From positions 20,381,501-20,445,500 of the forward strand of contig OX031063.1 in the NCBI GenBank assembly GCA_943736015.1: a stretch of DNA of 64,000 nt. Direction: 5' to 3'. Below, piece after piece: positions 1 to 35,783 of the stretch. A model generated the notes under the pieces. The model was not told the origin of the DNA. It ran no database searches and saw nothing but the letters and a program-made list of their open reading frames with translations. Each line of letters begins with the position of its first letter. Positions within the stretch are counted from its first letter, which is position 1. The translations under genes and the position numbers were made by a program. This DNA comes from Tridacna crocea. Taxonomy: Eukaryota; Mollusca; Bivalvia; Cardiida; Cardiidae.

Positions 1-2030
1 TGTAGTCGTCTCGTAAATAATCATGTCATTAGCTGCTGAAACAAAATTACAGTACTCGACTTTGAAACATATCGGTAGTGTGAAATAGAGTTCCTCGCAT
101 AAATACAAGTACAGATAAAATGCCAAACAATTTTGCTAAAGCAGATTTTTTTTATGATTTCTCCATTTACCAAAATGAACTCCTCGGCTGGTAACTTAAC
201 TTTGTTGATTTATGCAGACATCGGAGATCAAGATCAGACTGTACAGAATATCTACACTGTCCGATATGTTGAGGTCTATCATTATAGCAATTTTTTTAAA
301 GTATAAACTTTGGGCTTTTCCCTTTTCACTGGAAATGTTAGGTTTGATTTATTTAGGTGTTTATTAATAGTATAGTCTTTGGTTGAAACGAATATGACAA
401 AAAAAGGTATCAGTTCGAACACAGGAAGTGAAGACCATGTATAGAAAAAAAATCCTGTACATAGAATGACACATCTAATTCTAAAAGAAAAACAATACTG
501 TCTACACGGTTCTGCATCACGAATTGCAGATACGCGTTTATGTAAGGTAGGTAAGTCATTGTGATTTACTAAATTTTATTGAAACGAGTTATTTCCCTTA
601 TAGAGTTTTGTTGGACTTTCACTCAAGACACTGGTGTAATTCTGCTTCTGGTTAATGATCAGGCTACCCACGAAAAAAATCTTAATATTTGTGAAGCGCT
701 GATAAGTAATCTAGTTGCAATATTGAAAGAAGATGGTTGTTGTATTAGAGTCAGAGAGAGATAGAGAAATTGCATGTCCAAAAGGCAATGTTTCATTCAG
801 CAACAACGATTTCCTTGTACATGATTGGACCTCCTTGACGGGACAGTACTGTCAACCACACTGGCTGAACCATCAGGTTCCCGGCTTTCTTGAAGAATGT
901 CGATAAGTTTTTAGAGAATGGTTCCCCGTTTTCTTACCAAACAAATGCAAGTGGGGGTTCAGCCATTTTCATTTTCCACAGAGTTCTAATAAGCTCTTCA
1001 ATGAATTAATCAAGTAGATATAGTCTATCATTTATTTCGATTTCTCTAGACTGGAGACGGATAATGTGTGTTGAAAAGTTGAAAGGCCACAGAAAACAAA
1101 CAAATGCGAAAAAAAAAACAGCTTTCCTTGAAAATTGTCTCGTTCTGAAACACAAACAATTTGTTGCAAGCATAAAAAATCATGAAAATTACCCAGGATG
1201 TTTTTTAAACTCTAGGTAACACCTTCCACACAAACAGTTGAACAATGCTTTGAGAAAGCACCCTACAGTATTAATTAGAGACTTTTTTTTTTTCGAACAT
1301 ATAAAGACTCGAACACTTATAAAGCGCATCCTAACATAATTCTTTAAAAGTCCACATCGTTTTAGGAGACCAGTATGGTAGCAGACACACAATCCGAGAA
1401 AAAGCTTTCAAATAAACCTCATTTGTACGAAAATTAACTCTTATACCTTGTTCAATAACTTGAATTGAATTTTCAATTCTACATCAATAACCCAAATATT
1501 GCTATCAAAGTTATGTTTTGGGGAATGATATCTCCTTATCGGACGGTGTAGATCAAAGATCAGACTGCATATCTGTGCAGTCTGATCTAAATCTACACTG
1601 TCCACAAAAGGTGAGTGGTCGCGCTTAGCAGCCAAAGGGTTAATGATATAGATTAATATACAGCAGATATTTAAAGATATAGAAATTGGCAGGATTTTTA
1701 TGGATATTAGTAGTATAGTTTTTCGCTTAAACCTTTGTTGTTGGCACTGATCAGAATTGCCTGGGCTAGACATTGGAGCAAGTAATTCAATAAAAATGTA
1801 AACCAACCTCCAACAATCCTTGTAGCAATAAATGACCTAAGAACCTCATGTAGTCTCCGATTAGCCTTTTAGATATGTCGACCTCGTCTTTACTTGCCTC
1901 CGCTACATCTGTGATCTGTCGAATGATGGAACATCAAGAAACTACTCTGCGGTCCATGTATATATACTGGTCAGTGTTTAAACTTTATGTATTATCGAAA
2001 GATAACCAGGATCTCCAAAACGCATCCTGT
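1..2030. repeat. Left copy of a ~2-kb direct repeat
   Basis: Bases 1 to about 2030 match about 7838-9712 in the same orientation, with scattered substitutions and small indels. Both copies carry the same two Mieap-like exons on the minus strand and the same flanking non-coding DNA. The left copy is cut by the window edge, so its true left border is unknown. The match fades after the shared tract ending in AAAACGCATC. A P3 palindrome at about 1543-1605 is present in the left copy and missing from the right one, so it was inserted or lost after duplication. Confidence 0.9.
793..1915 (-). pseudogene. Mieap-like 3'-end pseudogene (last two exons)
   Basis: Two minus-strand exons are recognisable. 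Exon 1915-1808 (36 codons, acceptor cag, donor GAG|GTTGGT) is open and matches exon 9609-9499 of the neighbouring gene. Exon 1050-793 encodes the Mieap-type C-terminal segment with the W-K-M-K-M-A-E-PP start, VW near the middle and a K-x-I-V-V-A-E end. It is broken: an in-frame TAA lies at 934-936 where the intact copy has CAA (Gln), and a second in-frame TAA lies near the exon start where the intact copy has CAA. No upstream exons were found between 2.0 and 7.8 kb, so this is a 3'-end fragment copied by segmental duplication rather than a retrocopy, since its intron is kept. The window edge hides nothing needed, because the stop codon is inside the window. Confidence 0.8.
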
Positions 2031-3040
2031 GGCATTTATCCTTCTGTCAAATAGCATTAACTTGTATGTGTTGTTCCAAATAGTTCAAGGTCAGTGATAT
2101 TTTATATAATAGAGCCATATTCTTGCCAAATGAGAATAAATACATTCCAGTTGTTCATGATATCAATGAAGTTTTCACATATTTATGGACCCATGCAATC
2201 CTTTTTTTCTGACAATTTCTGGATCTTGAGTAAGGTTGGTCCTTTGACACGCAAGAAAAATGACCGATGGTAAAAAGTTTCAACTTATGTCAGCCTGAAT
2301 GGATTCTTCAGGCTTGCATTAATTGAATTTTTGAAAATGAACTAAAGGTGGGTATTCAGAATTTTCACATCACACCAAATTAAAAAATATATATATTATT
2401 GAAATTTATACGAAAAAACAATACAAATCATCAATAATTAAGAATCATAAAATTACAAAAAAAATTTTTTTTTTTGATGGTATTCCCTTAAAAGGCTATG
2501 TAGCCTCTTAAGCTATCTTTGGATTTCGCGCCAAAAATCGATAAAGCATTGTGGGAATGTCAAGTGACTAGCAAGTGACTAATAACACTTAATTTCCATT
2601 ACATAACAAACATGTAATAATTATTTTCCATAATGTCTTCTTCGGACGGATATTTGAAGCTTTGTCTTTGTTTTCCTGTTTTTAAATGAGAGAATTGATA
2701 ATCTAAAAATAGAACGTGTCTCCCGTTGGTGTCAACCTGGTCCGTAATAAATCTCTAATTTTTCGTGTTATCGGATGGTTTTTGACTGCTGGGGTTTTAT
2801 GAACGCAAATTAAAAGGCTATGAGAGTATAAGGATGATTTTTTTGCATTTTTGTAAAATTTTCGTCCCAAAATCTGAATGGCCACCTTTAAGCCCGCTTT
2901 TTCACAGAATTTGTCTCTGTAGAAGAGAGCTATGGAAAACAATGTGGGATATGAGTAAATGGTGGTAATCATTATATTCTTCATCTCTCACAATGGTTTA
3001 CGACATCGGAGATCTCCAGTACATTTGCTCCAATTTTGGA
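2031..3040. other. Gene-free stretch
   Basis: AT-rich DNA between the left direct repeat and the first dispersed repeats. I see no exon with good splice sites, no palindromic element and no codon-like pattern on either strand. Short ORFs here have no recognisable motif. Confidence 0.5.
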
Positions 3041-3400
3041 GTTTATCTGCAGATGCTTTCAATTTAGCATAGTCCAAAGTTTGTCATTTGGGAAAGGTAT
3101 AGAAGAGTTAATAGATCTATTTCAAAGTGAACACATTCAAATAAAATTAATATACGAGCCATGCTCTGACAAAAGCGGTCTTCATGCTTTTTTATTAGAA
3201 CATCTTTAATAACCAATTTAATCATGGGGTAGACTGGTCCTTGTACATACAGAAAATTGACGAAAAGTTTTGACTCGGGTTGATCCAGGTCAGCTCGCAC
3301 ATAATGAGCAGGCTGACAGGAGTGGATACTTTTCGGATATGCATTAAGCCCCCTTTTCACTAAGCATGACACATAGTATTTGAAATCCAAAACAAAAGAA
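3040..3400 (-). repeat. P4 dispersed repeat with a P1 MITE end fragment
   Basis: 3040-3095 resembles the terminal ~50 bp of the P1 MITE (TGCAGATGCTTTCAATT then a GTCATTTGGGAAAGG end). It abuts a minus-oriented P4 repeat recognisable by the GCCATGCTCTG-CAAAA start, the ATGGGGTAGACTGGTCC tract and the GGTTGATCCAGGTCAGC palindrome region. Confidence 0.55.
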
Positions 3401-5115: not shown

Positions 5116-5406
5116 AGATATTATAGTACTATATAAATGAAATGGATAGTCTTAGTCAATGCAAAATAAGTAGGGTTTCTTTTTTTTTTTGTTGTTGTTT
5201 TTATTTTTGTGTGTATGTGTGTGGTCAAAATATTGGGCAAAATAGCATATACCTAAGATCAGATTGCATCTTCTCTACAGTTTGATCTTGATCTACTGTG
5301 TCTGCAAAGGTAATTGTATTTCAAGCTGGCATAAACCCCTTTAGTTGAGTGTTTTATCTTACCATTGCTGCCTTATGCTAAATACAGAAAGAAAAGGTAG
5401 GCCAGC

Positions 5407-7837: not shown

Positions 7838-9712
7838 ATGTTGTCGTCTCGTAAAATGTTATGCCATTAGCTCCTGAAACAAAATTGCAGCACTTGACTT
7901 TAAAACATAGTGTAAATTGAGTTTCTTCTAAAAATACAATTGCACATAAAATGCCAAACAATTTTGCTAAAGCAGACTTTTTTTGTCATGTCTTCCTTTG
8001 CCAAAATGAACTCCCTGGCTGGTGACTTAACTTTGTTGACTTATGCAGACATCGGAGATCAAGACCAGACTATACAGAATATCTACACTCTCTGACATAT
8101 TGAGGTCTCTCATAATAGCAAAATTTTAAAACATAAACTTTGGGTTTTTCACTTTTCACTGGAAAAGTTAGGTTTGATTTATGTAGGTGTTTATTGAAAG
8201 TATAGTCTTCGGATGAAACGAATGTAAAAATGGTATCAGTTCTGACACAGAAACTGCTGACTATGATTGGGAAAAAAAAATTGTAAATAGAATGACACAT
8301 CCAATTCTAAAAGGAAAATGAATAATACAGTCTACACGGTTCTGCATCAGGAATTGCAGATACGTGGTCTTATGTAAGGGAGGTATTTAACTTATTTCCC
8401 TTCTAGGGTTTTGTTGGATTTTCACTCAAGACACTGGTGTAATTCTACTTCTGGTTAATGATTAGGCTACCCAAGAAAACCTTAGTACTTGTGAAAAGCA
8501 AATAAGTAATCTAGATGCAATATTGAAAGAAGAGGCCGTAGTTTTAGGGTCGGAGAGAGAAAGTGAAATCGTCCAAAAGGCGGTGTTTTCATTCAGCAAC
8601 AACAATTCCCTTGTACATGATTGGACCTCCCTGACGGGACAGCACTGTCGGCCAAACTGGCTGAACCACCAGGTTCCCGGCATTCTTGAAGAACGTCGAC
8701 AAGTTTTTAGAGAATGGTTCCCCGTTTTCTTGCCAAACAAATGCAAGTGGTGGTTCAGCCATTTTCATTTTCCACAGAGTTCTAATTAGATTTTCAATGA
8801 ATTGCTCAAGTAGATCCAGTCTTTCAATTATTTCGAATTCTGTTTTAACTGGCGACAGATAATGTGTGTTGAAAAGCTGAAAGGAGACAGAAAATAAACA
8901 TGCTAAAAATTAAAACAGCTTTCCTTAAAAATTTTCTAATTCTGAAACACAAACAATATGTTGTAAATACAAGCATAAAAAATCATGAAAATTTCCAAGG
9001 CTTTTTTTTTTTAGCGCAAGATAACACCTTCCACACAAGCAGTAGAACAATACTCTACAGTATTAATTAGAGGTATGATTTTGTTTGTTTGTTTGTTTTC
9101 GATCATGTAAAAATTTGAACACTCAGCAGATCCTAACAGAACAGAACAGAACAGAACAGAACATCGTTTATTTGACAAAAACTACATAGTTTATAGTCAT
9201 ATAATAAACAAATTTTTAAATCAAATGCATTTTAGTCACACATTTCTTTAAAATTCCACATCGTTTTAGGAGAGTAGTATAGTAGACGACACCCAATTCG
9301 AGAGGGAGCTTTCACACAAACCTCATTTGTATGAAATATAGTGATATAGATTAATATACAGCAGACAATTTAAGAGGCATAGAAAAGGCTTTTATAGATA
9401 ATAGCACTGTAATTTTTCACTTAAACCTTTATTGTACTGATCAGAATTGCCCGGGCTAGACATCAGAGTAAGTAATTCAATAAAAAACGTAAACTAACCT
9501 CCAATAATCCTGAAAGGGATAAATGACCTAAGGACCTCATATAGTCTCTTATAAGCTTTCTAGACCAGTCGACCTCTTCTTTACTCGCCTCTGCTACAAC
9601 ATCTGTGATCTGTCAAGTGATGGAACATCACGAAATTACTCTGCGGTACATGTATAAATACCAGTGTTTAAACTTTATGCATTATCGAAAGATAAATGGG
9701 ATCTCAAAACGC
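7838..9712. repeat. Right copy of the ~2-kb direct repeat
   Basis: Same-orientation match to 1-2030. It carries the last two coding exons (9609-9499 and 8848-8589, minus) of the functional-looking Mieap-like gene. Relative to the left copy it has an extra ACAGA-type short tandem repeat at 9136-9162 and lacks the P3 palindrome. Confidence 0.9.
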
Positions 9713-12700
9713 ATCATTTCGAGATAGGAATAAATGCTGTCGTAATGACTTTCATCAAACCTCGGACACATTTTCGCCGAGCAAGGGATTTCAACCACCA
9801 ACCTACTGCTTTAAAGTTTTATACGCTACTGACTGCGCATACGGTGTGGGAGTACAGAGGCAATAATAGTCGACCTTGTGCATTTGACAGAAGTACAAAT
9901 GAAACACACTTACTCATTAACTTTAACACAAACGTGAATGATTTCTCCGCCCCCCCCCCCCCCATCCAAAAAAAAAAAAGATGCGCACTACCTTTTCATT
10001 CTCCTAGACATTTATTCGAGGACTCGCCAATTCTATGATCAGTGCTACAAACAAAGAAATTTAGTGGACAATGATCAATTAGGCTGAACTCCAAATTCAT
10101 TTTCAAAATTATCACGCAGGAACGGACAGTGTAGAACCAAGATCAGACCACACATTCCATATACAATCTGAAATCGATCTTTAGTTTCTGCAAAAGCACA
10201 TTACTGATTTTTTTTAAAAAAGGGGGATTATTCCATTCCCAAATAGACAAAAAATAAAATCTGTTCAAATTTACAGCATTTGCACTCAACAATTAAGATA
10301 TGGATGAAATTGTAAGATTTGGCTTTGAAAGAGTAGAAAACATTGTAGGAAAAGGAAACAATGCTGTTTACCAGCATTTTCATTTTTTCCGACAATGTTT
10401 TCAAAAGTCTTCTCTTCAGGGGTCGTTAAAACAGTCGAGTCTTAAGTAAAAAGTTAAATGAACAAACCAAAATTCCGTCTATAGTTCCTGGTAGATGTAC
10501 TTTCAATGATTTCAGATCGTCCAGGGCCACCTGTTCGATTCTCGCCAGGTGCTGGGTCATTGCTGCAGAGCAAAGCTGATCAGCGCCCTGTTCAAAGGGA
10601 AATGAGTCAGATTCTGTGACAACAGTGTTTAACCCATTACCACACAATCCCTACTTTTGACGCCTCCGAGAGAGAAGCCTTTTGAAAACACTGTAGGAAA
10701 AGGAGAAAATGCTGGTAACCAGCATTTTCTCCTTTTCTCACAGTGTTTTCTACCCTTCCCAGATCAAATTTCAATTTTTCAGTCACCTTTATTTTGTCGT
10801 CTGCAAATGCGTTCAATTTGAATCAGTCTAAAATTTTGTCGTGTGGTAAAGAGTCAATAAACCTGCAAAAAGTGATCTGCCAGATCAGCCCGTCCAGTTT
10901 GCACAGGTTGACCTGGTTAAGATGTTGGCTTTAGGTAAATTTTCTGCTTGTCCAAGGAGCATCCTATCTCAGAATCAGCTGATTATTGAACAAAATGAAT
11001 TTCATACCTACAGATATGTAATGACTTGCTTGGTATAATTCATCATAGAGATGCATCGGACCTCCTTGTGCCCCAGCATAGCTTCATTTCGTTATTGTGA
11101 CAGTTTTGAAAGAAAACTCTTGGATTCGTCATATTCTGTCGTTGTCCGTACCCGAGTCACTGTCATCGTCATCACCGTGAAGGGAAAACTTTTAACATTT
11201 CTCATAGTTGTGTCATAACTTAGGATCACTGCAAAAATTGGCTGGCTGTTAACGATCAAGAGGGGTAACTTACAAGAAGGGCAGGTAGATTCTTGAAATA
11301 ATCCTAAAACATTTATGTTTCTTTGTGGACATCGTTTTTTCAATAAAGGCAAATGCAGTCCAGCGTGGAAAACGGCATGTGGTGCTGTTCTTTTAGACAT
11401 TCCTACCAGCATTTTCATTTGGGAGACAGTTTTTAGACACATTTTAGAAACATCTGTTTGTATGATTCGTTTTCACATTTTTTTCTTTGCTTTGTTTCAT
11501 TCTTATTGTGTTAAAACTTATTTCATCCCGCTTATCCATGCTTCACAAAAAGTTTTTAAGGTATGACCTGTGTAATGCACTTCCGGTGAACATGGGGCAA
11601 AATTCTAATTGGTTGATATATAAAGATAAATAAAGATTTAAGCCGAAATGATATTTTTGCACATTTCTAACGGATCAGAAATTCCGTTTGTATCTATCTC
11701 GAAATCATATTTTGATACTTTTGTTAGTTTTCTGAAAAAGAAGGTAATTATTATCTCTTTTTGATTTGAGAATATATTGATTTTAGATTTATAAATGATA
11801 ATTCAAAGAAGGAAAAAATGAATCGGTGAAAGTGGTTCAATAATACTCATTTTTAATTATAGCTAATTTTGCAAGATGATATTTTAGCGGAAATAGCTGT
11901 TTTCCATTACACAGGTCTTACCTTATGTGATCTGTTGCAATGGTCTTTCTAGAGTTTTATGGACTGACTTTGATAATAAAATTCGGCATTCCTTGAAACA
12001 TGAAAAATTTTACTTCGATCCTCTCTCAACCCGTTTCCATAATTACCTGTTGTCAAGATATGTATGTTGTTTTTCATGGTCAGAAATGATATTCTGACAA
12101 TAACTATAGTAAATTGGTCAGTTTGTTTAAAAATAATCAAAGAAAGGCTCATTTAATACGCAGATTTCTATGATGTCTTCGCAAGATTCAACGAACTGTA
12201 CAAAGGGAAAAGACAAAAAAAAAAAAAACTCATAGGGAAGCCAAAACAACATACTTTTACGATTCTGACAAGTATTTCAAGCACCTGGGACTCGTTCTTT
12301 TTCAATTTATTGATTGCATTAAAGGCGTTCCCATATTCATTGTCGTATAGTGAGCGAAACTGCTCGGCCAGGGTAGAAGGTCTAAAAGAGTCGTTCAGCT
12401 CCGATACTTCATCGATTCCTGTGCTTTCTTTCTCTCCTTGTTTTCTGACCATTGCATTCAGTCTGAAACGTAAACGTGTCTGCATTCAAGAGAAAAGTCA
12501 CTTTTGAATTTTAGTTATACGATTAAGGTATCGAAGAGGACAGTGCATGGCTAAAATGAAATAGAGCTGTCACTGAATGTGACTTAATATCCCCCGCCAG
12601 CGCTTTGACAGAAAAAAGTGTCAAGTTCAAGGGGAGATAATTCCTCAACCAGGAAGAGTTTAGACTGAAAAAGTGCGTCTGGCAAATCGTCAATATATGA

Positions 12701-15440
12701 TCAGTGTATGTGCAAAGTTTCAAATCAATTGAAGGAGAACTGAAGGAGGAATTCGCGACACAATATTACGAGTATTTTGTGCACAGACGGACACACGGAC
12801 GGACGGACACACGGATGGACGGACACACGGACAAACAGGCTCATTTCAATATACCCCCGAAAACATTCGTTTTGCGGTGGTATAATGATCTGAGATTACA
12901 AACTAGGCACCACAACTATTATGCTTAAAATGCAAGGTTATTACTTTTCATGGCGACATCTTGTCGACAGTAATGCAATCTGAACTTCCGGTTAGATGAA
13001 ATTGGAATAGGTAACATTCTACCAATTTAATTCTGTGTCGGTGCGACCCTTCTTCTTGTTAAACACAGTATCAATAGAAGTCTAAAGTTTCGAAATGAAT
13101 GAAATTGGTCTTTTATCTTTTACTCAAAATCAATTACAGTAAGACTCAATGAATATTTCTTTAGTATGTTTCGAGTAAAGTATGTAACAGTTTAGTTCTA
13201 TGATATATGACATGTAAATTTAATCGATACCGACTGCAAATATTACCTACTTTCACACTGCCAGCAAAAGGGTTTTAAAACGTACCTGTTTCTTGTCTCA
13301 ATCAGCTCTCGTTTTAAGATGATGTTTTCTTGCTGACATTTTTCGAACATTTTCTTGGGATTTGTTTCGTCATCTTCCTGCAACGTTACCATGGATTTTT
13401 TAAATGTTTAATGCGCTGCTTCTATTTGTAGTATTGACCAAAAAGGGAATGTATTCAGGAAAAAGGTCTTGTATTTCATTTGATCCCTCTCATACAAGCA
13501 AACGAAACTATCACTTATATTTGAGCTATACTCTTGCAGAAGGAGGTTTTGATGCATCTACGTCATACATGATACCAACCAAGCTATGGATCTATCAAGT
13601 CCTTTTTTGTGTAACAATTGACTGAACCATGCGTTACAGTGGTCCTTTGACATGAAAAAAAAAAAATAATAAATAAAAAAAAATGAGAAAGGCAAAACGT
13701 TTCGACTCAGGTCAGCCTGCGCAGGCTGACCTGAGTCGACACATTTTGCAGATGTATTTAGCCACCTTTTCACACACTATACCTCATTTTTATGGAAACT
13801 GAATGACTTGATAAATATTCATATATATATTACAGAAGTAGACGGTATTTCAATTTCAAAACTTTCAAATACAGAAAATTCTTGAAAATAGTCAAAGAAT
13901 TTCCTAAAGAATAGTTGGTGACTTCGTGCCTAGATATCGGAACTGAGTCCTACTCACTGAGTTAATCAAAACGTTCAAAACGCTGATGTGGCATTTGTCA
14001 AGGAAGTCATTAATTAATAATTTGAACGAAACATTATTCGAATAGTAATTTAAAAAACAACCTCCTTGGCATATTAATACATTTTTTTAAGGGAGAGTAC
14101 CATGCCAAAATTGCATTATTTGAGTATTGGTGGTCTCCCTTTGATCATTCAAGAGGAGTCAGAAGTAATGCCTCTTGACGGTAGGTTGGTTGGTGGGTAT
14201 AGAAAAAAAATCATGTAAATATATCCATTTAATCTAAGTTTTTTTTAACTTGAAAACTATGATTTAGAGATATCTTTGGCCGCCAGAAGATAATTCCCAA
14301 CATTACAATAAAAGTTTTCGACCTGTAAATATTCTCGTAAAATCAAATGGAGTAGCGTGCAATCATGAGAAGAAGAAGCCCGGGGATGAATTGGATTTGA
14401 CACGAACAAATCCGGAACCAAAGCAGTCAGTAAAAATTTTTTGTGTATACTAATGCACCAACAGTAGGCTATACGGGGGTATAGCTATTTTACTCAAAAG
14501 GAAATATTTCCGCGATGGATGACCTAATGCAGTTTATTTCAATACGCCGTTTCTAATTATATATCTAAGTGCTATTTAAAAACTTATTTGTCTGAGAAAA
14601 ACTGAGTTAAATTGGGTTTATTTCCTTCGATTTTACCCAAAATATGATACATGGTCTTCAAAATTCAATTGTTACACATAACTTGACGTTAGCCATTGTA
14701 TTGTAGTGAAAAGATCCTCGATTCTGCCAACAGACGGCATGCGTGGTGCCTATAAGCCTAAACAGGTTGAAAAGAGTGCTTAACTATACTGATTTTTTTG
14801 TCTTCGAAAAGAAAAAAACAAAAAGCGATTTTTCTTTGATTGAATGTTTGACAAACATTCAATCAAAGAATTCGATTTTTCAATTTTCAGTATTGAGCGA
14901 ATGGGTGTTGAATAAGCTCCTTTAAGAAGAGCAAGACAATCAAGTTCTTTTCAGAGGCAAGTTTATACACTGATCAATCCTTCTGCAAAAGTTCAGAGCA
15001 AATGAACCGTCTAATTTCTGGACAGTGACGCAAAACCAAGTTTTAGATAACGTTACAAGGAGTAACATCTTAAAGGTGGCGGTATATAGAAGTTTTTGCG
15101 AGGTGTAGCCTATTTACAACTCCTTGTCAATATCAGCATGCAAAATATCCGCGTTCAACTGTTTCGACACTAGACAAGCAGACTGTCAACATAAAAACGG
15201 TGACCAAACAAACAAACGAATCAATAAAATATCAGACAAAAACTTGAAGCAACTTATTCATACCTTACTTGAATGTAGGCCCTTGATTTCAGCCACCATT
15301 TTATTGTGATAATTCAGGGCTGCCTCGACTTTCTTACTGTCAACTTTCTTGCTGGACTTGCTTCTCTTCACGTCTTCTAACAGTTCCTTTACAGGGTCAG
15401 TGTTAGACTCAGCCATAGCTGCTATTGTATTGTTTCCCAT
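8589..15440 (-). CDS. Mieap-like protein, six exons, minus strand
   Basis: Inferred exons (minus strand, genomic order of transcription): 15440-15264, 13377-13286, 12462-12255, 10587-10501, 9609-9499 and 8848-8589. The first five have GT-AG borders with matching phases (0, 2, 0, 0). The protein is about 312 aa: a Lys/Ser-rich N-terminus from MGNNTIAAMAES (a second Met at residue 9 could also start), a coiled-coil-like charged exon, and then the block STLAEQFRSLYDNEYGNAF, which matches the F-x-x-I/L-Y-x-x-E-W/Y block of the two plus-strand genes. Next comes a 29-codon exon with A and C at positions 2 and 6, as in the paralogues. The last exon has WKMKMAEPPL, QPVWPTVLS and KGIVVAE, equivalent to the Mieap C-terminal domain. 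Human Mieap/SPATA18 acts in p53-linked mitochondrial quality control, and that role is only inferred here. Oddity: the last intron is out of phase by 2 nt unless a weaker donor 4 nt downstream (GTTA|GTTTAC) is used, so this gene may be newly broken. It lies head-to-head with the gene at 20503. Confidence 0.72.
9136..9162. repeat. Short tandem repeat (ACAGA)n
   Basis: About five head-to-tail ACAGA units. It is absent from the equivalent place in the left direct repeat, so it expanded after duplication. It lies in the last intron of the minus-strand Mieap-like gene. Confidence 0.9.
9770..9850 (-). repeat. Possible tRNA-derived SINE remnant
   Basis: On the minus strand a box-B-like tract (GGTGGTTGAAATCCC) lies about 40 bp after a weak box-A-like tract (CAGTCAGTAGCG). 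Decayed, and the SINE tail is not clear. A C13 homopolymer and an A-rich run follow at 9950-9980. Confidence 0.3.
10225..10455 (+). mobile_element. Degenerate P1 MITE copy
   Basis: The centre GTAGGAAAAGGAAACAATGC with its inverse, the CAGCATTTGCACTC tract and the TCAGGGGTCGTTAAAA tract identify the family. Both ends are eroded. It lies in the intron between Mieap-like exons 10501 and 9609. Confidence 0.65.
10629..10857 (-). mobile_element. P1 palindromic MITE copy, full length
   Basis: Reverse orientation. The left end is TTAACCCATTACCAC and the right end is GTGGTAAAGAGTCAA. The palindrome GGAGAAAATGCTGGTAACC and its inverse are perfect. It is inserted about 40 bp upstream of the acceptor of Mieap-like exon 10587-10501. 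Confidence 0.88.
11000..12254. other. Large intron with no supported feature
   Basis: Intron of the minus-strand Mieap-like gene. Overlapping ORFs at 11092-11442 (minus, with a CPSC tetrad) and 11315-11566 (plus) show no complete zinc-binding pattern. I see no palindromic element here. Confidence 0.4.
12786..12834. repeat. GGACACAC minisatellite
   Basis: Tandem GGAC/ACAC units (GGACACACGGACGGAC repeated with variation) in the intron just upstream of Mieap-like exon 12462-12255. The plus-strand ORF over it encodes low-complexity RTHGRTD-type peptide and is not a gene. Confidence 0.8.
13590..13790 (-). repeat. P4 dispersed repeat
   Basis: It contains a perfect 23-bp palindrome (GGTCAGCCTGC and its inverse) at about 13714-13736, with the flanking TCGACTCAG / CTGAGTCGA extending the stem. 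The GTGGTCCTTTGACATG tract is shared with other P4 copies. It lies in intron 1 of the minus-strand Mieap-like gene. Confidence 0.75.
14832..14870. repeat. Perfect 18-bp-stem hairpin
   Basis: TTCTTTGATTGAATGTTT, then a 3-nt loop (GAC), then its exact inverse. Not seen elsewhere in the window. It lies in intron 1 of the minus-strand Mieap-like gene; on RNA it would form a stable stem. Confidence 0.85.
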
Positions 15441-15905: not shown

Positions 15906-15910
15906 GTGGG

Positions 15911-20502: not shown

Positions 20503-23500
20503 ATGTCGCAAGCGGACGGGCGTATCAGCTCCGTGAACCGCGTAATGCACGCGATGGAAGAGCTGGACCACAGTGAATTGACTCGTGGAAATGTGCGAGC
20601 TGCCAGTAGAGCTATCGTCAGTATGCATAATGAGCTGCAGAAAGATTTAGGTAAAAGTAACCCAAAGTTTCGTGACTTTTTTACCAAGCAAATCACACTT
20701 TTAACGGCCCTGAAGAAGAACACTGCGGGAAATAAAAAAAAAACATGCTGGCTATCAGTACTTTTCTATTTAGGACCTTACTTATCGGAAAAAATACGTG
20801 TAACTAGATGCATTTCGTCCCGTTTACGCTAGCAAATATGTGTTGCAAACACCACCTAACACCATGTTTGCAAACTAAAGTTTTCTAGTGTAGACCTGTT
20901 GGCAAACACTAGCAAACGTCACCAAACTGTGTTTGGTGACGTTTGGACATGTTCATTTTCGTTTGCTCTATTCGGTGATGCTTGGTGTTGTCTACTGTAT
21001 ACTGACCAGTCAAAAGCTGTCCTTTTATCACGTTATGGATGCATCATATGATCTTCAAAAACCACTAAAACTGTTTGTAATTGATTGCCGTGGTTTAGAC
21101 ATCCCACAGACAATGATGGACAAATCTCATAAAACAAAAGTATAGTGATGTTTGCAAACAACTGTTGCTAGTGCTGGTAGGCCTTTAGACTAATGTTAGA
21201 CTGACACACTTCACAAAGATCAACACAGGTATACTTTTGGTGTATACTTTTGTTCTCTACCAGACCCTTGCACTGTAAGGTAATAGTACTAATGAAGTGT
21301 TAAGCATGGTGTATTCAAGTTAAATGATATGAAGCTAAAATATTTCAGGGATGGATTCAGTCACTGACTCGTTTGATAAATTGTTGAATTTTGCTGAAAA
21401 GGGGAATTGGACAGAACTTAGAAATGCCAGAAATAATGGACTTATGCCTGCCGCAAGAGACGAAATCAACAACTTGTTTCTAAAAATGGATAGGTACACG
21501 GTAAGTCACGGAGAAAATTCAACTCCTAACTGTGGATAAATAGATCTTGAACTGTTTGAATCAAATCTTTATTTTGAAGTATTTTTCTGAGCTTGTGTGT
21601 TTTGAGAAAACATGCTAGCAATTAGAACTGTTGCACCAGTTTAGGATTAAAAAATTTCCTGCACATTAAGATAAAACATCAATTGTCCGGGCAAATATGT
21701 GGCGCTTGCTTTCTTCCTTTTGATACGTTTTTTGAGTTTCATATGATTATTCGACATCCTTATCCGATTATAGCATGGACTCATTTATTTGTCCAGCGCG
21801 TACTTCGCGCTATTTGCTAAACTCAACATACATTGTCAACTATTTATAAAAAAAAAAAAAATGCTTTTTTCGAAGTTCCATCGACTGTAAAAATCTCATC
21901 GCAGCAGAAAATGTACATCCAAAACCAGAAGACTGCACGTTCTGTGCAGCCTGATGTTGATCTGTACTATACATAATAATTGGAGTGCAACACGCGAAAA
22001 GGTGCATTCGGACATTTGCGTAAAGTGTCGTCTCGGATTAGCCTGCGCAGTCCGGCTAATCCGAGACGGCACTTTACGACTACATTAGATTTTGTGCTAC
22101 AGTAGACTTTCGTAAAACAGAAAATCACATAAAATCGGAAAGTGTCGTTTAGGATTAGTTTGTGCGGACTGCACACGCTGATCAGAGACGACACTTTACG
22201 CAAATGTCCGAATGACCCTTTTCGCGTGTTGCACTCCATTATATTATAACAATGCAGATAGTTATGCTTAGAAGCTAGAACAGTTAATCTGAAACTCGTA
22301 GTTTTATTCAACAGTCCCAAAGCGTTGACCCAGTGTCCCGCACAGGTAACTATAGCCAGAGAAAGGAGGCACCAATCGACCGTGGTTATCCGCCACAACA
22401 TACCGAGGCCAGCGAGAAAGCTTACTTACAGCGCAGAAGGGCAGCACAACTCGAACATCGTGACAGAAGGTCTGTGGAACCAACAACATCACCCTGGGGC
22501 GACGACTATGAGAGGCACGAACTAAGGCAAAGAGATGATCCGAAACAAGTCAGTAATACGTAAGTAAAAGAAGGTTCTCGAGTTTTATGGCTGAGCATCG
22601 TTAAAGCGTTTTGTGTTCTTTACCACCTAAAATTCCTTGTTAATTGGTGTCGTAAGTTTGGATCAGCGACGACTTCAATACAATTCGCCAATATGTACAC
22701 TGTGCAAGCGTCACATTTAAATTCATCGCTAGTGCTGTTATGCCAACGATTTTGAAAGATAAACACTTAATCAAGTTTCGTAATCACCCGTCTTCTTAAG
22801 GATATCATAAGTCTTATTATAGACTTAGAAAGTAATGCAATTTCTGATTGGGTAAACCATTTGGTTTAAACAATCATAAGTTGTGTTACTTTAAAATTTA
22901 GATAATTCTAAGTAAGACTATCGATGTTCTTTGGAATGATTGGGAATCATAGATACACAACGCCTTTTGAAGAACACATTTCTTTAATGGTAATTGGAGT
23001 TTCTGCCATGTATATGTACCATGTAATGGTATTGCAGGATAAGCAAATTAGCCGCAGATAGACTGACAGGCGGAAGACTATTGGAAGATGTGACAAGTCC
23101 TAAACACGTGGCAGAGATGTTTGTAGATATCTATAACAAGGAATGGACGGCCGCCTATGAGGAGATCAACAGAACAGTAAGAGATGGCACTGAAACCATC
23201 AGACAAATGACATCTATTATTGAGGTGCTTATTAGGGTCTTACTTTATGAAATGGTTGTAAAATCTAGCTCGATGGATGTTTTATAATTCTCTCAGATTT
23301 TGAATCAACTTTTGAAATGTACATTAACCGATATTACTGATTACTCTGCAGAGATAGAATTCGTATTAAAATCATTCAAAATTAATTCATCTATTTGTAG
23401 CATTAACACAAGCAATGATGATTTTGACATTCCTTCCGTAGCAAATCAGGCCGCTAGTCTTGTGTAATATGGATTATACAGAGGTTCAGAATTGTTGTTG

Positions 23501-26302
23501 GATCGATACAAACCTGAACCGGCTTCTTCGACAAGGCTGACCCTTTATCTTTGGCATACGTTGGTTTCTCCCTCCGAGTTTTTTTGTGGAGATACTGACT
23601 GATAGTTTATCTCAAAAGATATGAAACGTTATTTTTTCACGCACTTTTTTCAGAATGCCTATGACTACTGCAAGAAAAATGCAGAAAGACAATTGATGAA
23701 TATGTACATGCATGTAGAGAATGAGATGATTTATCCAAACGTGTCAGCGGAATCCAGGGTAAGGCAAAGGATGCTAGCCATGCTCTAGCAAAAATGGTTT
23801 TGATGCATTTCCGTGATGCATAAAGCCAAGGAAGTTATTACATAGTTATGGATCCATAAAATTCACTTTGTCTAAGAACAGGGTTAATCTTGGGGTGGAA
23901 TGGTCCTGCGGCATATGGAAAATTTACCAATAGCTAAAAATATCGACTCAGGCTGACAGATGCATTTAGTTCCTTTTGCACAGTGTGACTTGCATACTTT
24001 TTGTTTTGTTTAATGATATTTTTATGCTAAATTAAACATAATTTTAGTCAATTCGTACATGTATATTAGGCGAGAGCTACTTACCTACATGTTACTTGAG
24101 CGTAAGCTTAATATGTAATGAGACTTTTCAGTGCAATGCAGAGGACACTCCTATATAGATATATTGAACACAGAGCCTCTCGATTACACTCTTAAGGTAT
24201 TGACACAAAGGCACGATTTGGAAGACGCGAAAATATGACTATTTGAATACAGTACAGATATTTCATTTGATCAAAAGGAAACCCTGTCAAAGAAAAAGGC
24301 ACCCTCTCCGTGATGTTCACAAACAGTCATCACTGCAGTTACAACTTTGCCAAATGCAACTAGGAGCATTTTCATTATACTCTTATTTGTAAGAAACTTC
24401 AAAGGAAGTCGTAATTGTTGGACTTGTTTCCTGCCAACTGCACCAATCGTACTTATTTTAAAGACCTGCAGGTAGATTTCCATAATTTTGAAGTCTGATG
24501 ATAGTTCAGTACCTAGTTCTATATTGCAAGGAAATTTCCCGCAATCTGATTGCATAATGTACCCTGAACATCTATTCCTGTACGCTGGCAACATCCACGT
24601 AAAAGCAGCTTCCCCTTTTGGGAGACCCGTACATAATTACACTTTCAAAAATGGCGTCGTCGATGGATTCGATCCGCCCACAAGACAAATATACTGACCA
24701 GCCTGCACCATTTTATTACTGGTTTTCCTTGATGGTTGTCATTTAAGTGGAAATGGCAGATTCTTTTTGTAAATAAATGAATATAGTTACATGTTATTAC
24801 CGTTTACTGTTATTCTAAAATAAATACATTGGGTTAAACGAGCATAGGCAAATTGGTAAGTGTCAAAACTCAATCATTGTAAAATTAAAAGGATAACCCA
24901 ATGGTAGTATGAGACAACTAATGGTCATGCTCTTTGCCCAAAACTCATTAAATTAATAGCTACTTACCTTGAAGTTGTTGAACTACATGTTCAAATTATG
25001 TATACCTCGAATATTTTTCACAATTACATCACCAAGTCCATGCACCAAACTGGTTTCAGTGGTGTCATTTCTCAGTGACATCAGTTTTAATTGAATTGGG
25101 GCACTCAGAAAGAAATTCTATGGTTATTTGAAACTGTATAAGAGTGCTATTTTATATTTCAAAATCACAGGCATCGTTAGAAGCACAGAAACAGCCACAG
25201 CGCAGACTGATGAACATTGTTAGAGAAGGCGACCATTTCATACAAGATTTTCGAAAACATACAGCAATGGCGTCTTTACCATTCCTAAAGTGGGTAAGCA
25301 ATTATGACTGAACGACAGTTATTCTCATCTGCGTATGGATTGAAAGTATTTGTGGCCATATATTAAAATGTGGGTCAAATAATTGGATATGTCTGCCTTT
25401 TACTAAACTGCATACTCAAGCAGTATAAGTAAGAAGGCATCAAGTCTGAAAGCATATTTCTCTAAAATGCATAACTTTACGATTTGAGTTAATGTTTGCA
25501 CAACCTAAAGCCAGCACATCTATTTGAGTAAGGATTTTGTATTTTATGTGCATATACAATTCCAAACAAATTGCGGAAATCTACGCAGTTTAGTGAGAGG
25601 GCGGTAAAACTGCGAACACGCTTGATACAGGGTGTAAGTTCTGAAGGGCATGGTAAGGACATCCCTAACATGTCTGTTTTCGTCTTTGCCTTTAAAGCAA
25701 ATAGTAGGACAGTGTATGTAGCGTTTTACTTTGTTTCAAAACTGTAAGTGCTAAATATTCACAGTTATCTCGTCTGCATTCTTTGTGATACACTTGACTT
25801 ATTTATTATTCATTACACACCCACATGTGATTAGTTAGAGCCATACACTGGTTTAGAAAAAAATTACACTAACTTAGGTAATGATAAATATTGACATTCA
25901 GACAACATATGATTGAAAAAGATTTGAAGTGAAGCTTAGAACTGAACTTCCGTTCAATTTCTTTTCCATCGTATGTCATTATTGTTCAATATCTGAATAA
26001 AAATGTGTTTAAAAAAATTATTTCAGTACTTTTATGAAGACGTCCTAAAGTCCCTGTCGCCAAACAGACATCCGACCAGTTATCAAGCTGCCTATGTAGA
26101 CCGTTGTGTAGACCTGTGCTGGATGATGGCTATACAGAACCCACCCATGCATTTCGAATTCTGCTATAAAGGAGATCGTCCATCGTCTTTATTCCGACCA
26201 TTTACCAAAACCGGAAGCATTGTACAGAATTGTGTGTGGCCGGCCCTATTCTTGCACAAGGACGGCCCACTTATGGAAAAGGGCGTGGCACATTTAGCAT
26301 AA
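20503..26302 (+). CDS. Mieap-like protein, seven exons (about 410 aa)
   Basis: Exons inferred by splice sites and phase: 20503-20650, 21349-21500, 22315-22559, 23038-23224, 23654-23758, 25171-25293 and 26030-26302. They sum to 1233 nt with one open frame. Residues ~1-100 are helical and charged, and residues ~100-182 are Arg/Gln-rich and probably disordered. Residues ~182-244 hold the block with VAEMFVDIYNKEWTAAYEEI. The next exon begins NAYDYC, and a 41-codon exon follows. The last exon (about 90 aa) has WMMAIQNPPMHFEF, VWPALFLHKDGP and KGVA, which I recognise as the C-terminal domain of Mieap/SPATA18. In vertebrates that protein drives mitochondrial quality control; the cell location and role here are inferred. 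The first donor is uncertain: exon 1 stays open past 20650, but only the AG|GTAAAA donor there gives phase 1 to match exon 2. The donor after exon 4 (GAG|GTGCTT) is weak. Introns contain foldback elements. Divergent from the gene ending upstream at 15440. Confidence 0.82.
20820..21180. repeat. Intronic inverted repeats built on GTTTGCAAACA
   Basis: A palindrome AAACGTCACCAAA-TTTGGTGACGTTT lies at about 20917-20944. Outer inverted tracts (GTGTTGCAAACACC near 20837, GATGTTTGCAAACAACTGTTGC near 21146) suggest a ~340-bp foldback element in intron 1. Confidence 0.6.
21981..22238. mobile_element. 258-bp foldback MITE with nested hairpins
   Basis: The terminal inverted repeat TGGAGTGCAACACGCGAAAA runs inward through CATTCGGACATTTGCG and AAAGTGTCGTCTC. 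The left arm contains its own internal hairpin (CGGATTAGCC / GGCTAATCCG, 22032-22067), and the right arm has a weaker one (GTGCGGACTGCAC). It lies in intron 2, only 76 bp before exon 22315-22559. Target duplication not resolvable by eye. Confidence 0.85.
22780..22950. repeat. P7-type foldback element
   Basis: Inverted arms CTTAGAAAGTAATGCAATTTCTGATTG and CAATCATAAGTTGTGTTACTTT around a short loop, like 15911-16020. It lies in intron 3 of the plus-strand Mieap-like gene. Confidence 0.65.
23780..24000 (+). repeat. P4 dispersed repeat
   Basis: GCCATGCTCTAGCAAAA start, GATGCATTTCCGTGATGCATAAAG, TTATGGATCCATAAAATTCAC, GTGGAATGGTCC, and a truncated palindrome region (TCGACTCAGGCTGACAG). It is the clearest copy of the family's left half. 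Confidence 0.75.
24001..25170. other. Intron without a recognised element
   Basis: Overlapping ORFs at 24271-24594 (minus) and 24488-24697 (plus) have no identifiable domain. The plus one lacks a splice context, and I treat both as chance. Confidence 0.4.
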
Positions 26303-29190: not shown

Positions 29191-29317
29191 TAGATGAATT
29201 ATTTGAATATAAACGCAATTTGAAAAAAAAAAGTATTCAATGGCTCTGGGATATCTTATTGAAGTAAAAGAAAAAAAAAAAGATTATTAAAAAGAATGAT
29301 ATCAATTGTTAACAGTT

Positions 29318-30102: not shown

Positions 30103-33100
30103 ATGGCAACAACAGATGAGGACCCTGACGACGTACGAGAAAGATATTCATCTCTCGGTTGGAATAGAGGAATGCCGTAAGTGCATTTTTTAACGAACTA
30201 AATCTCTTGTAATGTCTCATTATTTAATCATTGAATCGTCATGATATGCGACCATGGACTCGTTTTACTGTGGATGTAGATCAACAAGATCAGCCTTCAT
30301 ACACGAGAAGTCTGAAGTTGTTCTAGTTTTCCCGCCTCTTTTGTAGTGCTTTACTACACAAAGAAATTGTAATTCCGTCCATACTGAAAATATTTTTGAC
30401 AGTGGAAAAAAAAAATAAGAAATTAGGGTCTTCCAAATGATATTTGTTTCAGAAAGGGTAAAATGGTATGGATCAGGGTGAGAAAAGGAGAAAATGCAGG
30501 TTATCCGTCTAAATATTAAGGTCTGGTATATAGCAGAGGCTTTTTTACGTCCTTGATAATCCGAATTCATAGTTTCGTCGAACTAATTCTAACTTCCTAC
30601 CACTGCTTGTATTCAATTTTCAGCAAATGATTATCATCTTCATACAATTGGGTATTGAGTACAGTCTCATTAGTTACTATCGACGATTAATTACTATAAG
30701 ATCAACGATTTGACTCGTCAGGTGACTTTTAACATACGCACGCCAACGAATCTGTGAAAGCAGTTTCAGTGGAGCTAAGGCACTCGCAGATTATGCTTCT
30801 TAACTAAAGATTTTTATGTAGAACCCCAGCGAGAAAGAAACTCCTTTGAAGTTTTAACTTTCATTTTTTTGTTCCAGTTCTGCCTTACCAACCAAAACAC
30901 CAAGAACTGGAATGTCAAGAGTTGGCTCTGGTCAAAGTGTAGACAGGTGCGATCTTTATGTTATTCTGTATACCCTTGCGATACTTAGAACAGCTCAGAA
31001 CAGTCAGTGCACTGGAGATTAACATCATTCTGCCCTGGATCTGAAATGCACAGTCGACAGTTTGATATATATTCTAACATAAGTTATCGCCCTAAATAAC
31101 CAGAATGCCGAGTAAATTGGTCAATTGAAAGATAAAAAGAAAAACGTAAATGATTCAGCATTAAGTGGCTGAGAAATGAAAAGAACCAGTATATATGAAA
31201 GTCATAGACAATGTGTGGTCCATAGACCATGCAAGATCGTAAGAAAACAAGTCCACATTTTTTCGAAGAATCTAAATCTCATCAAGAGAGATATATATAG
31301 GCCATGCTTTGGCAAAAGAGTTTTTTTGTGTGCATCTTTGTGATGCATCATTACGAGCAAGTTGTCACATAATTATCGTCGGTGTACTTCCAAATCCTCG
31401 TAACAAGCTGTAGTTACCAGGTTTTGGAAGTACACCGACGTTATGAGTTCATAAAATCTATTTCGCAACCGGCTGAATTCTGATGTAGAATGGTCTGAAA
31501 TGCAGAAAATGATCAAGGTATCGACACACGTCATCCTAGTCATCCTACGCGGACCTCACAGGCTAACCTAGGTCAATAGTTTTTGCGAATATATCAAACC
31601 CCTTTACTCGAACTGAAGTTAAATACATGCCTTTTCGTAGAGCACGGATCATTTTTCTTATGTCTTCTTGAAACTTTTCGGTGCAACAATTCTGTTTGAA
31701 AAAGCATTGTCTGCGCATGTCATAATGTTTTGAAAAATCGACTTATCTGCTATGACGCATCACACATCCCTTATATTTGAGAAAAGTAGGTCTTATACCG
31801 AATCTATTACCCAAGCCTGTAGGGGCTGATTTAATAAATGGCCAATGCACCGGTCACGTGCTAGCCTAACATAGCTGAATGAATTGCGCCAGGTAGCGTT
31901 TTATTGCGTAAACGTTTATCTTATTTTGAAATTCAATGTAACGGTGGTAGTTTTGAAAAGTAGCCCGGTTCTGTACAAAGAGTGTCTGTATCAAGTAGAT
32001 GTGTAGAATGCCATCTAGAGGAAGATAATGGTTTGGAAATCCACCATCCAGTAACAAAAAATTCGCTTATCTAAATTGCACCATGTCCTCTTTCAGGACT
32101 TCTTTCTTACCACTCATTGCAAGTGGCTCAAAAGGTATGCTTGGGTACGTCCTTGAAAAGATGCACAAAGGTCAGCTTCTTTCACAGCACGAAGTTTCAG
32201 CGGGACTCAGGGAATACAATCAAATGAAGCTGACCATTGCAGAATTAGAGCATAAAACAAGGAATTTAAGGGTAACATCTAATCATTTGTTTGATATCTA
32301 TTGTCATTTTTAACATTATGTTGGTTATGTAACGGCGGCCATGCACAATTAAAGCCAATTTCAGTCCAGTCGAAAAGAGAAATTTTCGGCAGTGTGAGAG
32401 CAATAATTTAAATCTTACCACACGACAAGCTTTAAGTTCAGTTAGTCACGAATGTATTTAGAAGCGACAACTATTATTTGACTAAAATGGCGGGATTTGT
32501 CTTTTAAAGGGTGAGAAATAGTTTGGGAAAAGAAAAGGCTGCTTAGGTTATCCATTCAGCATGCTACTTTTTAGATCCGATGCGTGTTGCCACCGTTGCT
32601 TCTCAAGATATATAAGCCATGGTTTGGCAAAGAGGGTTTTATCGTTGTGTCGACAAATGGTTGGAAATATTCAGTATCAGTATTATGCATGCCATTTGCC
32701 TGAATATATCACGATGGCAAACAATCAACATATAAGCTTCAAAAACACAATGTCTTTATCAATTTTCTAAATTCTCTCTTCCAGCTACAAGTTACTGACG
32801 AGGAAGCTGTTGGGATTAGAGCACCACCGTCTGAGACAGGAAAGCCGACCAAAACTGTCCTTGATCCAGGCTCTGTAATCATGTCGAAAGCAGAGAAAAA
32901 CAGACTGCTGGAACAAATAGAAAGAAAACAAAGGCTTATAGATGAGCTGAAACAAAGGTTATTTTAGCAGTGTCGTATCAATGCATTCCATCTTGCAAAA
33001 GTTAGATGTTGAAGTGAACATCTAATTGCAAGAAATATAAAATGTTCTTTAAAAACCTATACTGTGCCCGTGCTAACATTTCATGAGTTGCACAAGTGAT

Positions 33101-35783
33101 AAACCCTTGGAGAAAAGAAAGAGCAGCTAATAAAACATCTGAAAAATTATGATAACTCCTTGGTACATGACATATTTTCAAAAGCTGTAAATTCAACGCA
33201 TATAAAAGAATGTAATAAGGATGTTTCTGAAAATTGTCACAGGTATAGGAGATATAGAACTATGATGCAAGTAAAAAGACACATTTCGCACTAACTTTCA
33301 ACAACAGCCACTTACATCTAAGCAAAAGACATATTTTTTTCAAGTAACGGACTACACCTTAAGGGAGACAAATCTCCTGTTCAACAACAAATTAATCTGA
33401 GAAATATCAATATGATATTCACTACAAGTATATCCAGTATTTATATATTTTCTTACCCTATAATTTTGCAGACTAAAAGCATTGGCACAATCTAAGACAA
33501 AAGTTAAACATGTCTTGGTCTCTGACGTTGCGCCGCCAGCGAAACTAGTGGACGAATTTTGTGACATATACGAGAAGGAATGGTCTCAAACATATGAGGC
33601 TCTGAAAGCATCGTGGAGGGACAAAGAGCGGGTCATCTATACGTTGTTCAGAATTGTTAGAGTAAGTGCGATTATGAAGTATTGCTATATTTTAATACCT
33701 AGCACGACTCAAGAAGTTTTGGGGGACAATGAAGATCAAGATCAGACTAGACAGAATGACCAGTTTGATCTGTGATATGGAGAGACTTTGAGTTAGTACT
33801 ATTAGGGTCTCACTATCGGATAGATAGTTTAATTTATTTATTATGTTAAGAGTTTAGGGTCTGCTATTGGCTCCAAAGTATGTTTCAGCATGTACACTAT
33901 TTGTTTTGGCCAATACAGACTATATACTTTCTGATATGCCAGCAAAACACCTAGCTTGTAACACTTCAAAAATAATAAGTGAATTTACTTTGGGCAATGT
34001 CTTTTTCTTTCTTCAAAAAAAATGATTATAACATTGTATGATATTATGCAAGTACACCTGATACTTTTTTCTGTTAAAAAGAAATAAATCAAATATCAAA
34101 CATAAGCTTTCTTTTTAATCTCTCCTTTTTCAGCATGCCTATGTGTTCTGTTTTGACATTGCTGAAACTCAGAGAAACGCAGTCGATGGTTTTACGAATC
34201 AGCTACAGGAAATCATGCTGCACCCATATTTCTACCATCCAGTGTCAAAGCTGGTAAGTTTATCTGACATAATTATTTTCAAACAAATGTGTTGCTTTTA
34301 CACACTGTTTTAATATCTATTCAATCTCTCATGAGCTTTGTAGATTTTTGACCAACAACTGATATCATTAACCCTCAAGAACCAAGTATTGAAATAAAAA
34401 GGAAGACCCAACAACAGGCAAAGTAAACAGTTAAGGTGTCAAGATTTGAACGTACTGATATTACTGTGGCGATTATAATCTGTTATTGTACGGTCGGTTC
34501 GAGTGTTAGTTGCTTGCAGGAAATTGCATTTTAAAACAAAGTGAAAAGTTGCCAAGTCGCCTTCTTTTTAGTTTACTTTTTACTCAGTTTTGAAAACGTA
34601 TTTCCCCACAATGTCTTCAAAATCCGTTTTTTACCCTGGTAGATAAAAATCTGGGAAATGTTAAGGTCGAAATATTCAGGTCAACTATGGTTTGATTGAA
34701 ATGTAAAGCATCATGGTTGTGAAAGAAGTGAATACAGCGATTTTAACAGCGCTAATAACCTTAAACTCCAGACATTTATAAACATTATTTATCTTTCAGT
34801 GTCTAATAAAAGCATAGAAAATTAAATTTGTTTTTACATAATGACAATTCTATTATTCAGAAATACAAAGCATCTGCAATGGTTGGGGCGGATACACAAA
34901 AGTACACAGAGACCGGACGCGACCTGATTGGAGAGTACAGAAATATTCTCGTTAGTCAGTCTATAACAGGTGTTCAAGAGGTAACCTAGCTTTTGTCCCT
35001 AAATCTTACACCTAACAATACTATATTTTAGCTGCCCTTACAATATTGAGAGGAAAGAAGAAATTGTTGGTGACCATTATTTTCACATTTTCCCACTTTG
35101 TCTTCTACCTTTCTTTTAGACTATCTACTTTTTAAGACAGGGAAATACACATATTTCTTCTCAGAAGCATTTTTTTCATAATTCTGATAATGCGAGTAAG
35201 CCTATTTGTTTAATTCTTTTCCTCCCCGATTTTTGTCTTTTTTTTTACTTATATGTTGGGCGGCAAAACTACGCGTTTTGGTGTTTTCTCTGTTCTTCTC
35301 CCTAACCAGACAGGCTTCAAAAGCCGCCCCCGCCTCCAGGCAGTATTTCAAACTAGGATTTTCCAATGCAAATCCAATTGAATGGGTGTGGATAAGCTGA
35401 AAGTTAAGTAGCAAAAAATGACTAAATATTTTACCTTTTAGATTGTATTTGTGTTTTGTTTTGTTCTTATCCAGTTATTCAGGAAAGTCAAGTTGCCGGA
35501 AATATTCGAAAGCGGTTTCGTGACAAAAGGAGTTCAAGACTTTGTAAACAGAGTTGTGCAGGTGATATGGTTAATGGTGGTCCAGGACCCACCAATGATG
35601 GTGTACTGGCTCGAACCTGGACGGGCCGTACTTCCAGAGTACTTTAACTACTTCGACGACAAAGCAGCACTAGTCAAATACACTGTATGGCCAGCAATCT
35701 TCTTGAAAGAACAAGGAGCAATTCTGAGTAAAGGTGTTGTCTTGGCAACAGATACGGAGGATTTTGATGATCTTGACTACTAG
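30103..35783 (+). CDS. Mieap-like protein, eight exons, 409 aa
   Basis: Exons by splice site and phase: 30103-30176, 30878-30946, 32097-32271, 32785-32957, 33472-33661, 34134-34253, 34861-34980 and 35475-35783. They sum to exactly 410 codons including the stop. The start Met follows TTGTTTTAG directly, so a spliced 5' UTR is possible. Order along the protein: short acidic start (MATTDEDPDDVRERY), Ser/Thr/Pro-rich linker (to ~47), helical segment (~48-106), charged coiled coil ending near residue 163, then the block with LVDEFCDIYEKEWSQTYEAL. A 40-codon exon opening HAYVFC comes next, then another 40-codon exon. The final 102 residues have WLMVVQDPPMMVYW, TVWPAIFLKEQG and SKGVV, and end in an acidic tail rich in Asp. 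That last exon matches the Mieap/SPATA18 C-terminal domain. Its exon layout from the Y-x-x-E-W block onward is the same as in the gene at 20503, so the two are tandem paralogues. Function in mitochondrial quality control is inferred from family. Confidence 0.85.
31290..31620 (+). repeat. P4 repeat interrupted by a perfect foldback
   Basis: Left half of P4 (GCCATGCTTTGGCAAAAG, TGATGCATCATTACGAG, GTCACATAATTA) and right half (ATTCTGATGTAGAATGGTC, GGCTAACCTAGGTCAATAG). Between them, 31377-31440 is an inverted repeat with CGTCGGTGTACTTCCAAA arms, apparently a separate small insertion. It lies in intron 2 of the Mieap-like gene. Confidence 0.65.
31740..32035 (+). repeat. ~300-bp dispersed repeat, copy 1 of 2
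   Basis: Same-orientation match to about 44850-45150, sharing TGCTATGACGCAT, TATTACCCAAGCCTGTA, GCGTTTTATT-GTAAACGTTTAT and TTTTGAAAAGTAG-CCGGTTCTGTA. No terminal repeats, coding capacity or box A/B found. This copy ends about 60 bp before a Mieap-like exon. Confidence 0.75.
34254..35150. other. Introns with P1 remnants
   Basis: 34585-34640 (TTTCCCCACAATGTCTTCAAAA) and 35040-35120 (GGAAAGAAGAAATTGTTGGTGACC, TTTTCCCACTTTGTCTTC) are eroded P1 centres either side of exon 34861-34980. Confidence 0.45.

Follow-up and report, generated by a model that had tools for sequence, protein, structure and literature searches.

We analysed a window of 64,000 nucleotides from the bivalve Tridacna crocea (assembly GCA_943736015.1, contig OX031063.1, positions 20,381,501 to 20,445,500 of the forward strand), which lies on chromosome C8 of the 1.05 Gb assembly. 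The window holds three intact-looking genes and one broken copy, all of which appear to be relatives of the mitochondria-maintenance gene Mieap. The original prediction, made from the letters of this stretch, had placed a cluster of Mieap-like paralogues at 793-35783, consisting of a tandem pair, a third gene in inverted orientation and a pseudogene. Its extent and layout were both borne out, the terminal stop of the broken copy (the relic) being at 793-795 and that of gene 3 at 35781-35783. Exons were rebuilt from translation, homology and splice sites. Gene 1 has six exons on the minus strand (15416 to 8589) and encodes 323 residues; gene 2 has seven on the plus strand (20503 to 26302) and encodes 411; gene 3, also on the plus strand (32083 to 35783), has six and encodes 366. 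Each reads as an open frame. The last four exons, here called A to D, are entered in phases 2, 0, 0 and 0 in all three genes. GT-AG boundaries are available at every junction, one donor (gene 1 exon B) having been revised; this agreement is modest evidence on its own because the sites were sought.

The spliced translations were searched with a hidden Markov model, the Pfam MIEAP profile PF16026, which has a curated cut-off of 27 bits. All three proteins matched it end to end: gene 1 with 62.2 bits (E 8.8e-17, profile positions 1-194 of 195), gene 2 with 51.5 bits (E 1.7e-13, positions 2-193) and gene 3 with 70.7 bits (E 2.2e-19, positions 2-194), confirming that these are Mieap-like paralogues. 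The best single exons were the last ones (E 4.8e-13, 4.5e-9 and 1.1e-13 for genes 1, 2 and 3), and the spliced models scored better each time. The late-exon motifs named in the original prediction are present in the three genes (Table 1): exon A carries F-x-x-L/I-Y-x-x-E-Y/W, exon B opens with x-A-x-x-x-C, and exon D contains W-x-M, PP, VWP and KG. When all six frames of the window were searched with a strict pattern for the last exon, it occurred exactly three times, once in each of the three genes, and never in 30 two-base-block shuffles. All of 21 aligned copies have the W of W-x-M, the WP and the G of KG, and the M and the K are kept in at least 90%. No other credible Pfam domain was detected at E up to 1 in any of the three proteins, and the prokaryote-centred NCBIfam gave no partner domain in gene 1 or in the N-terminal part of gene 2. 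Solved structures gave no credible match (best E 0.75 and 0.28).

All four loci had been predicted to share the late exons. This holds for the three genes, which carry all four; the relic keeps only the last two, and its last exon contains two in-frame TAA codons (1008-1006 and 936-934). Gene 1 exons A and B, used as queries, had no counterpart in the first 8 kb of the window. The relic segment is interrupted at about 1433-1640 by an insertion whose sequence recurs elsewhere in the window. Its intron and 3' flank are 83-86% identical to those of gene 1, so that the last exon, at 90%, is little better conserved than the sequence around it; the ratio of non-synonymous to synonymous substitution rates (dN/dS) of the last exon against gene 1 is 0.46, stop codons excluded. 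A fourth gene at 793-1915 was ruled out, there being only two exons and two in-frame stops. Judged by this alignment, the fourth locus is a truncated, stop-bearing duplicate of gene 1.

The presence of one relic, the long branches of the family tree and, for genes 1 and 2, donors that are weak or uncertain would also suit a reading in which the three genes are themselves decaying leftovers of a birth-and-death process, unexpressed or dying and without a function of their own. We consider this improbable. Each model keeps an open frame over six or seven exons together with the invariant residues of the last exon. The last exon of each window gene is at most 50% identical to that of any other intact copy listed, and over such divergence neutral decay should have broken the genes.

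In the whole genome, the PF16026 search returned at least 46 stretches, and four last-exon protein queries returned at least 51, 23, 41 and 48 matches. Their union comprises at least 53 MIEAP-domain loci, a count in which four exons of one gene were merged and the relic, the canonical-like gene described below and partial matches were included. C8, with 5.8% of the bases of the genome, carries 46 of the 53; the corresponding binomial probability of 1e-49 is rough because tandem copies are not independent. Several of the 53 loci match only the last ~40 residues. Five loci with such a match on C8 (44.32-44.38, 45.68 and 56.39 Mb) have open frames of 196-256 residues and are perhaps a subfamily with another exon layout. 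One locus on C9 (57.22 Mb) departs from the window genes in that the open frame of its Mieap-like last exon continues into a long stretch rich in serine, arginine and proline. Another C9 locus (46.57 Mb) gave the best single stretch of the genome-wide profile search, its last exon alone reaching 89 bits. When the canonical-like gene is the outgroup, this locus and C8:3.38 Mb form a pair close to the base of the tree (96/56).

The canonical-like gene is found on the plus strand 69 kb upstream of the relic, at C8:20,309,272-20,312,965, and matches PF16026 with 216.3 bits over positions 1-195 of 195. The profile and four-query searches gave no further family match between it and the relic. Its exon layout differs from that of the window genes; the entry phases of its exons A and B (2 and 0, respectively) are nevertheless those of the window genes, and the stops listed for one of its profile stretches lie outside the exon as read. 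This gene is most likely the true Mieap/SPATA18 orthologue, a judgement drawn from comparison with the family profile and not with the gene of any named animal. Closeness to the profile, which singles it out, sets the window genes (51-71 bits) apart from the probable orthologue. The loci other than these four genes were profile-scored exon by exon only.

A large expansion of Mieap in bivalves is already in print. The orthogroup OG24 was reported to contain 807 genes, with 53.1 per species in 15 bivalves compared to 0.6 in 17 others, and three Mieap duplications were placed in the bivalve ancestor (PMC8382680). The lineage expansion suggested by the original prediction is real and was previously published. 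The family size found here, together with at least 150 C1q matches in the genome (150 of 179 candidates scored), points to a bivalve genome. OG24 shares with the present family the annotation as mitochondria-eating protein, and its roughly 53 genes per bivalve resemble the at least 53 loci here. The agreement of 53 with 53.1 may be chance, since the 53 loci include the relic, the canonical-like gene and partial matches, and since their membership of OG24 is presumed. The sections of that paper on OG24 give the counts and the reading that intracellular damage control was important early in bivalves; the chromosome maps that accompany them cover OG10 and OG1241 instead (PMC8382680). A SPATA18-like protein was reported to change under cadmium in two dreissenid mussels, with directions that are inconsistent between sections of that report (PMC11036304). 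One detail, the concentration of the family on the chromosome that carries the canonical gene, did not come up in the published accounts consulted: no report of it, or of closeness to the canonical gene, was found among open-licence PubMed Central (PMC) papers, preprints aside, and one may well exist elsewhere.

Kinship among the copies was examined with a tree of 45 last-exon sequences (97 columns), from which the canonical-like gene, the relic, the partial-match loci L051-L055 and C8:44,379,310 were left out. Gene 1 groups with C8:27.65 Mb (support 100/97), and genes 1 and 3 share a five-member clade with C8:27.65, C8:32.45 and C10:49.30 Mb (99/98) that does not include gene 2, which falls elsewhere at a position without strong support. 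Relic aside, the nearest relatives of the three genes are megabases away on C8, or on C10. When the canonical-like gene was added as an outgroup, the bootstrap did not settle. The deep branching order is unsure because the alignment is short and many branches are long.

The original prediction had taken the array for a local expansion, which in its plainest form would be a recent tandem array whose three genes arose from one another here and diversified on site. The genes are adjacent, genes 2 and 3 have the same orientation, the relic is a local duplicate of gene 1, and trees holding together genes 2 and 3 or genes 1 and 3 were not rejected by the approximately unbiased test (p-AU 0.0747 and 0.154, respectively). 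In contrast, a clade of all three genes was rejected (p-AU 0.00478), and the two well-supported groupings tie genes 1 and 3 to distant copies without gene 2. The last exons of the window genes are only 22-29% identical to one another, compared to 87-96% in six young pairs elsewhere. Young pairs occur, for example, at C8:5.70/5.75, C8:45.18/45.24 and C8:5.32/5.34 Mb, and as two C2 genes ~20 Mb apart. On these last-exon comparisons the window genes are no recent tandem array, and we give an on-site origin little credence. Among nine pairs of related copies elsewhere, last-exon dN/dS was 0.21-0.45 in five; it was 0.77 and 1.04 in the two pairs with the lowest dS (8 and 5 changes), and dS was saturated in two.

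The N-termini had been predicted to be divergent, and this was upheld. When the first coding exons were compared with 20 other loci, one had a weak match (E 0.0019) at a single locus and two had none, and the N-terminal parts of the window genes have no detectable kinship to one another. In all three genes the N-terminal part is more hydrophilic than the domain, with grand average of hydropathy (GRAVY) values of -1.08 against -0.10, -1.02 against -0.51 and -0.45 against -0.15 for genes 1, 2 and 3. This contrast exceeds that of shuffled sequences for gene 1 (P 0.0025) and gene 2 (P 0.0375). In a simple heptad test gene 3 stands out, with 9 of 500 shuffles scoring as high.

Human Mieap is reported to be induced by p53 (PMC10845071). 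Its N-terminal half is described as hydrophilic and as containing two coiled coils besides disordered stretches. Its C-terminal half is described as hydrophobic; it directs the protein to mitochondrial condensates and is proposed to bind cardiolipin or a precursor (PMC10845071). The window proteins resemble human Mieap/SPATA18 in having an end-to-end C-terminal MIEAP domain and an N-terminal part more hydrophilic than the domain. Beyond the domain they extend by no more than about a dozen residues, too few for a disordered C-terminal tail like that of the human protein (PMC10845071).

On balance, we favour the view that the window contains three probably functional MIEAP-domain paralogues and a relic, members of a large family that probably grew by repeated duplication from canonical Mieap, and that the three act by a Mieap-like mitochondrial mechanism. 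If the genes are expressed, the C-terminal domain would, in line with the proposal for human Mieap, anchor the protein at mitochondria by binding a phospholipid there (cardiolipin or a precursor of it). The divergent N-terminal part would select partners or promote condensation. Paralogues that differ in their N-termini might then attach different clients, or answer different stresses, at the same membrane target. Since the domain is kept and the hydropathy contrast is weakly kept, Mieap-like phospholipid attachment with N-terminal parts that differ in their partners seems the most likely mechanism, although all of its functional steps are ones that we infer. The new roles in quality control or stress envisaged by the original prediction may have arisen.

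Several observations weigh against this view. The window genes reach only a quarter to a third of the profile score of the canonical-like gene. The PP pair, present in more than 90% of the 21 aligned paralogues, is replaced by AHSL at about that place in the canonical-like gene. A heptad pattern stands out in gene 3 only, whereas two coiled coils are reported in human Mieap (PMC10845071); genes 1 and 2 gave no heptad excess (96 and 144 of 500 shuffles as high), and the hydrophilic bias of the gene 3 N-terminal part is within chance (P 0.19). A predicted fold of the last exon, made from a three-row alignment, had a mean predicted local distance difference test score (pLDDT) of 40.4 and was discarded. 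The gene models were drawn from the genomic sequence; where each gene begins, and which donors close exon B of gene 1 and exon A of gene 2, are their least certain points.

The low profile scores suggest that function may have drifted, and the proteins could have departed from mitochondrial quality control altogether, for instance towards a role in ciliated cells of the gill or in signalling for immunity or stress. In a mussel, the Mieap domain is in excess among genes enriched in the gill, but the paper reporting this attributes the gill enrichment to mitochondrial function (PMC5549309). The searches described above also gave the N-terminal parts no partner domain that would mark such a departure. 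We regard it as unlikely, if slightly less so than decay or an on-site origin. More speculative than the favoured view of Mieap-like paralogues, and rather doubtful as it stands, is an extension of it in which canonical Mieap seeded a birth-and-death family over the whole chromosome. The phospholipid module would have been kept and the N-terminal part replaced repeatedly, and the copies would now form a set of scaffolds for mitochondrial condensates that differ in their clients.

Many bivalves can live through prolonged oxygen deprivation, and about fifty Mieap-family genes could plausibly contribute to keeping their mitochondria usable. Should the N-terminal parts truly differ and the membrane-binding domain be conserved, the family would allow a test of which part of Mieap picks clients. 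As most of the family is on the chromosome of the canonical gene, its history should be readable by synteny between species.

Table 1. Exons of the Mieap-like genes, parts of the relic and copies of an interspersed repeat, in window positions.
Feature	Position	Strand	Remark
Truncated duplicate of gene 1 3' half	1..2026	-	collinear with 7839-9715, pieces 81-84% identical
Relic of last exon	793..1078	-	257/285 aligned bases identical to gene 1 last exon (90%); terminal TGA 795-793
Relic of penultimate exon	1808..1915	-	3 bases shorter than in gene 1; 89/108 aligned bases identical (82%)
Gene 1 last exon D and stop	8589..8876	-	WKM, PP, VWP, KG
Gene 1 exon C	9499..9609	-	37 codons
Gene 1 exon B	10468..10587	-	GADQLC, 40 codons; donor picked by length match to gene 3 and L028
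Gene 1 exon A	12255..12462	-	MIEAP domain start, FRSLYDNEYG
Gene 1 second coding exon	13286..13377	-	charged
Gene 1 first coding exon found	15264..15416	-	MAESNTD...; weak match at locus L028
Gene 2 first coding exon found	20503..20650	+	unmatched at 20 other loci searched
Gene 2 second coding exon	21349..21500	+	
Gene 2 linker exon	22315..22559	+	hydrophilic; disorder is a reading, uncomputed
Gene 2 exon A	23038..23224	+	FVDIYNKEWT; donor gtgctt weak, boundary uncertain
Gene 2 exon B	23654..23758	+	NAYDYC, 35 codons
Gene 2 exon C	25171..25293	+	41 codons
Gene 2 last exon D and stop	26027..26302	+	WMM, PP, VWP, KG
Gene 3 first coding exon found	32083..32271	+	unmatched at 20 other loci searched
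Gene 3 second coding exon	32785..32957	+	most of heptad-like stretch
Gene 3 exon A	33472..33661	+	FCDIYEKEWS
Gene 3 exon B	34134..34253	+	HAYVFC, 40 codons
Gene 3 exon C	34861..34980	+	40 codons
Gene 3 last exon D and stop	35475..35783	+	WLM, PP, VWP, KG
Interspersed repeat copies	about 5407, 6300, 10630, 17241, 19731, 35850, 36915, 37479, 46246, 54464, 60503, 61975		

Repeats and mobile elements were also observed in the window. Two palindromic elements match their own reverse complement, one inside a gene 2 intron (21973-22247, 78%) and one at 39367-39518 (81%). An interspersed repeat of ~180-240 bases has more than ten copies in both orientations, some more than 90% alike, and translated interspersed repeats swamped an all-against-all protein comparison of exon candidates from the genome. 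Two head-to-tail retrotransposon copies with broken frames occupy 49963-54360 and 55917-60129, their pieces being 87-92% identical. They match integrase zinc-binding, reverse transcriptase and RNase H domains, with the integrase zinc-binding match before the reverse transcriptase, an order which we take to be that of Gmr1-like Gypsy elements. A piece of ~210 bases occurs in both copies (54142-54350 and 59911-60119) and at a third place ~10 kb upstream (43833-44043).

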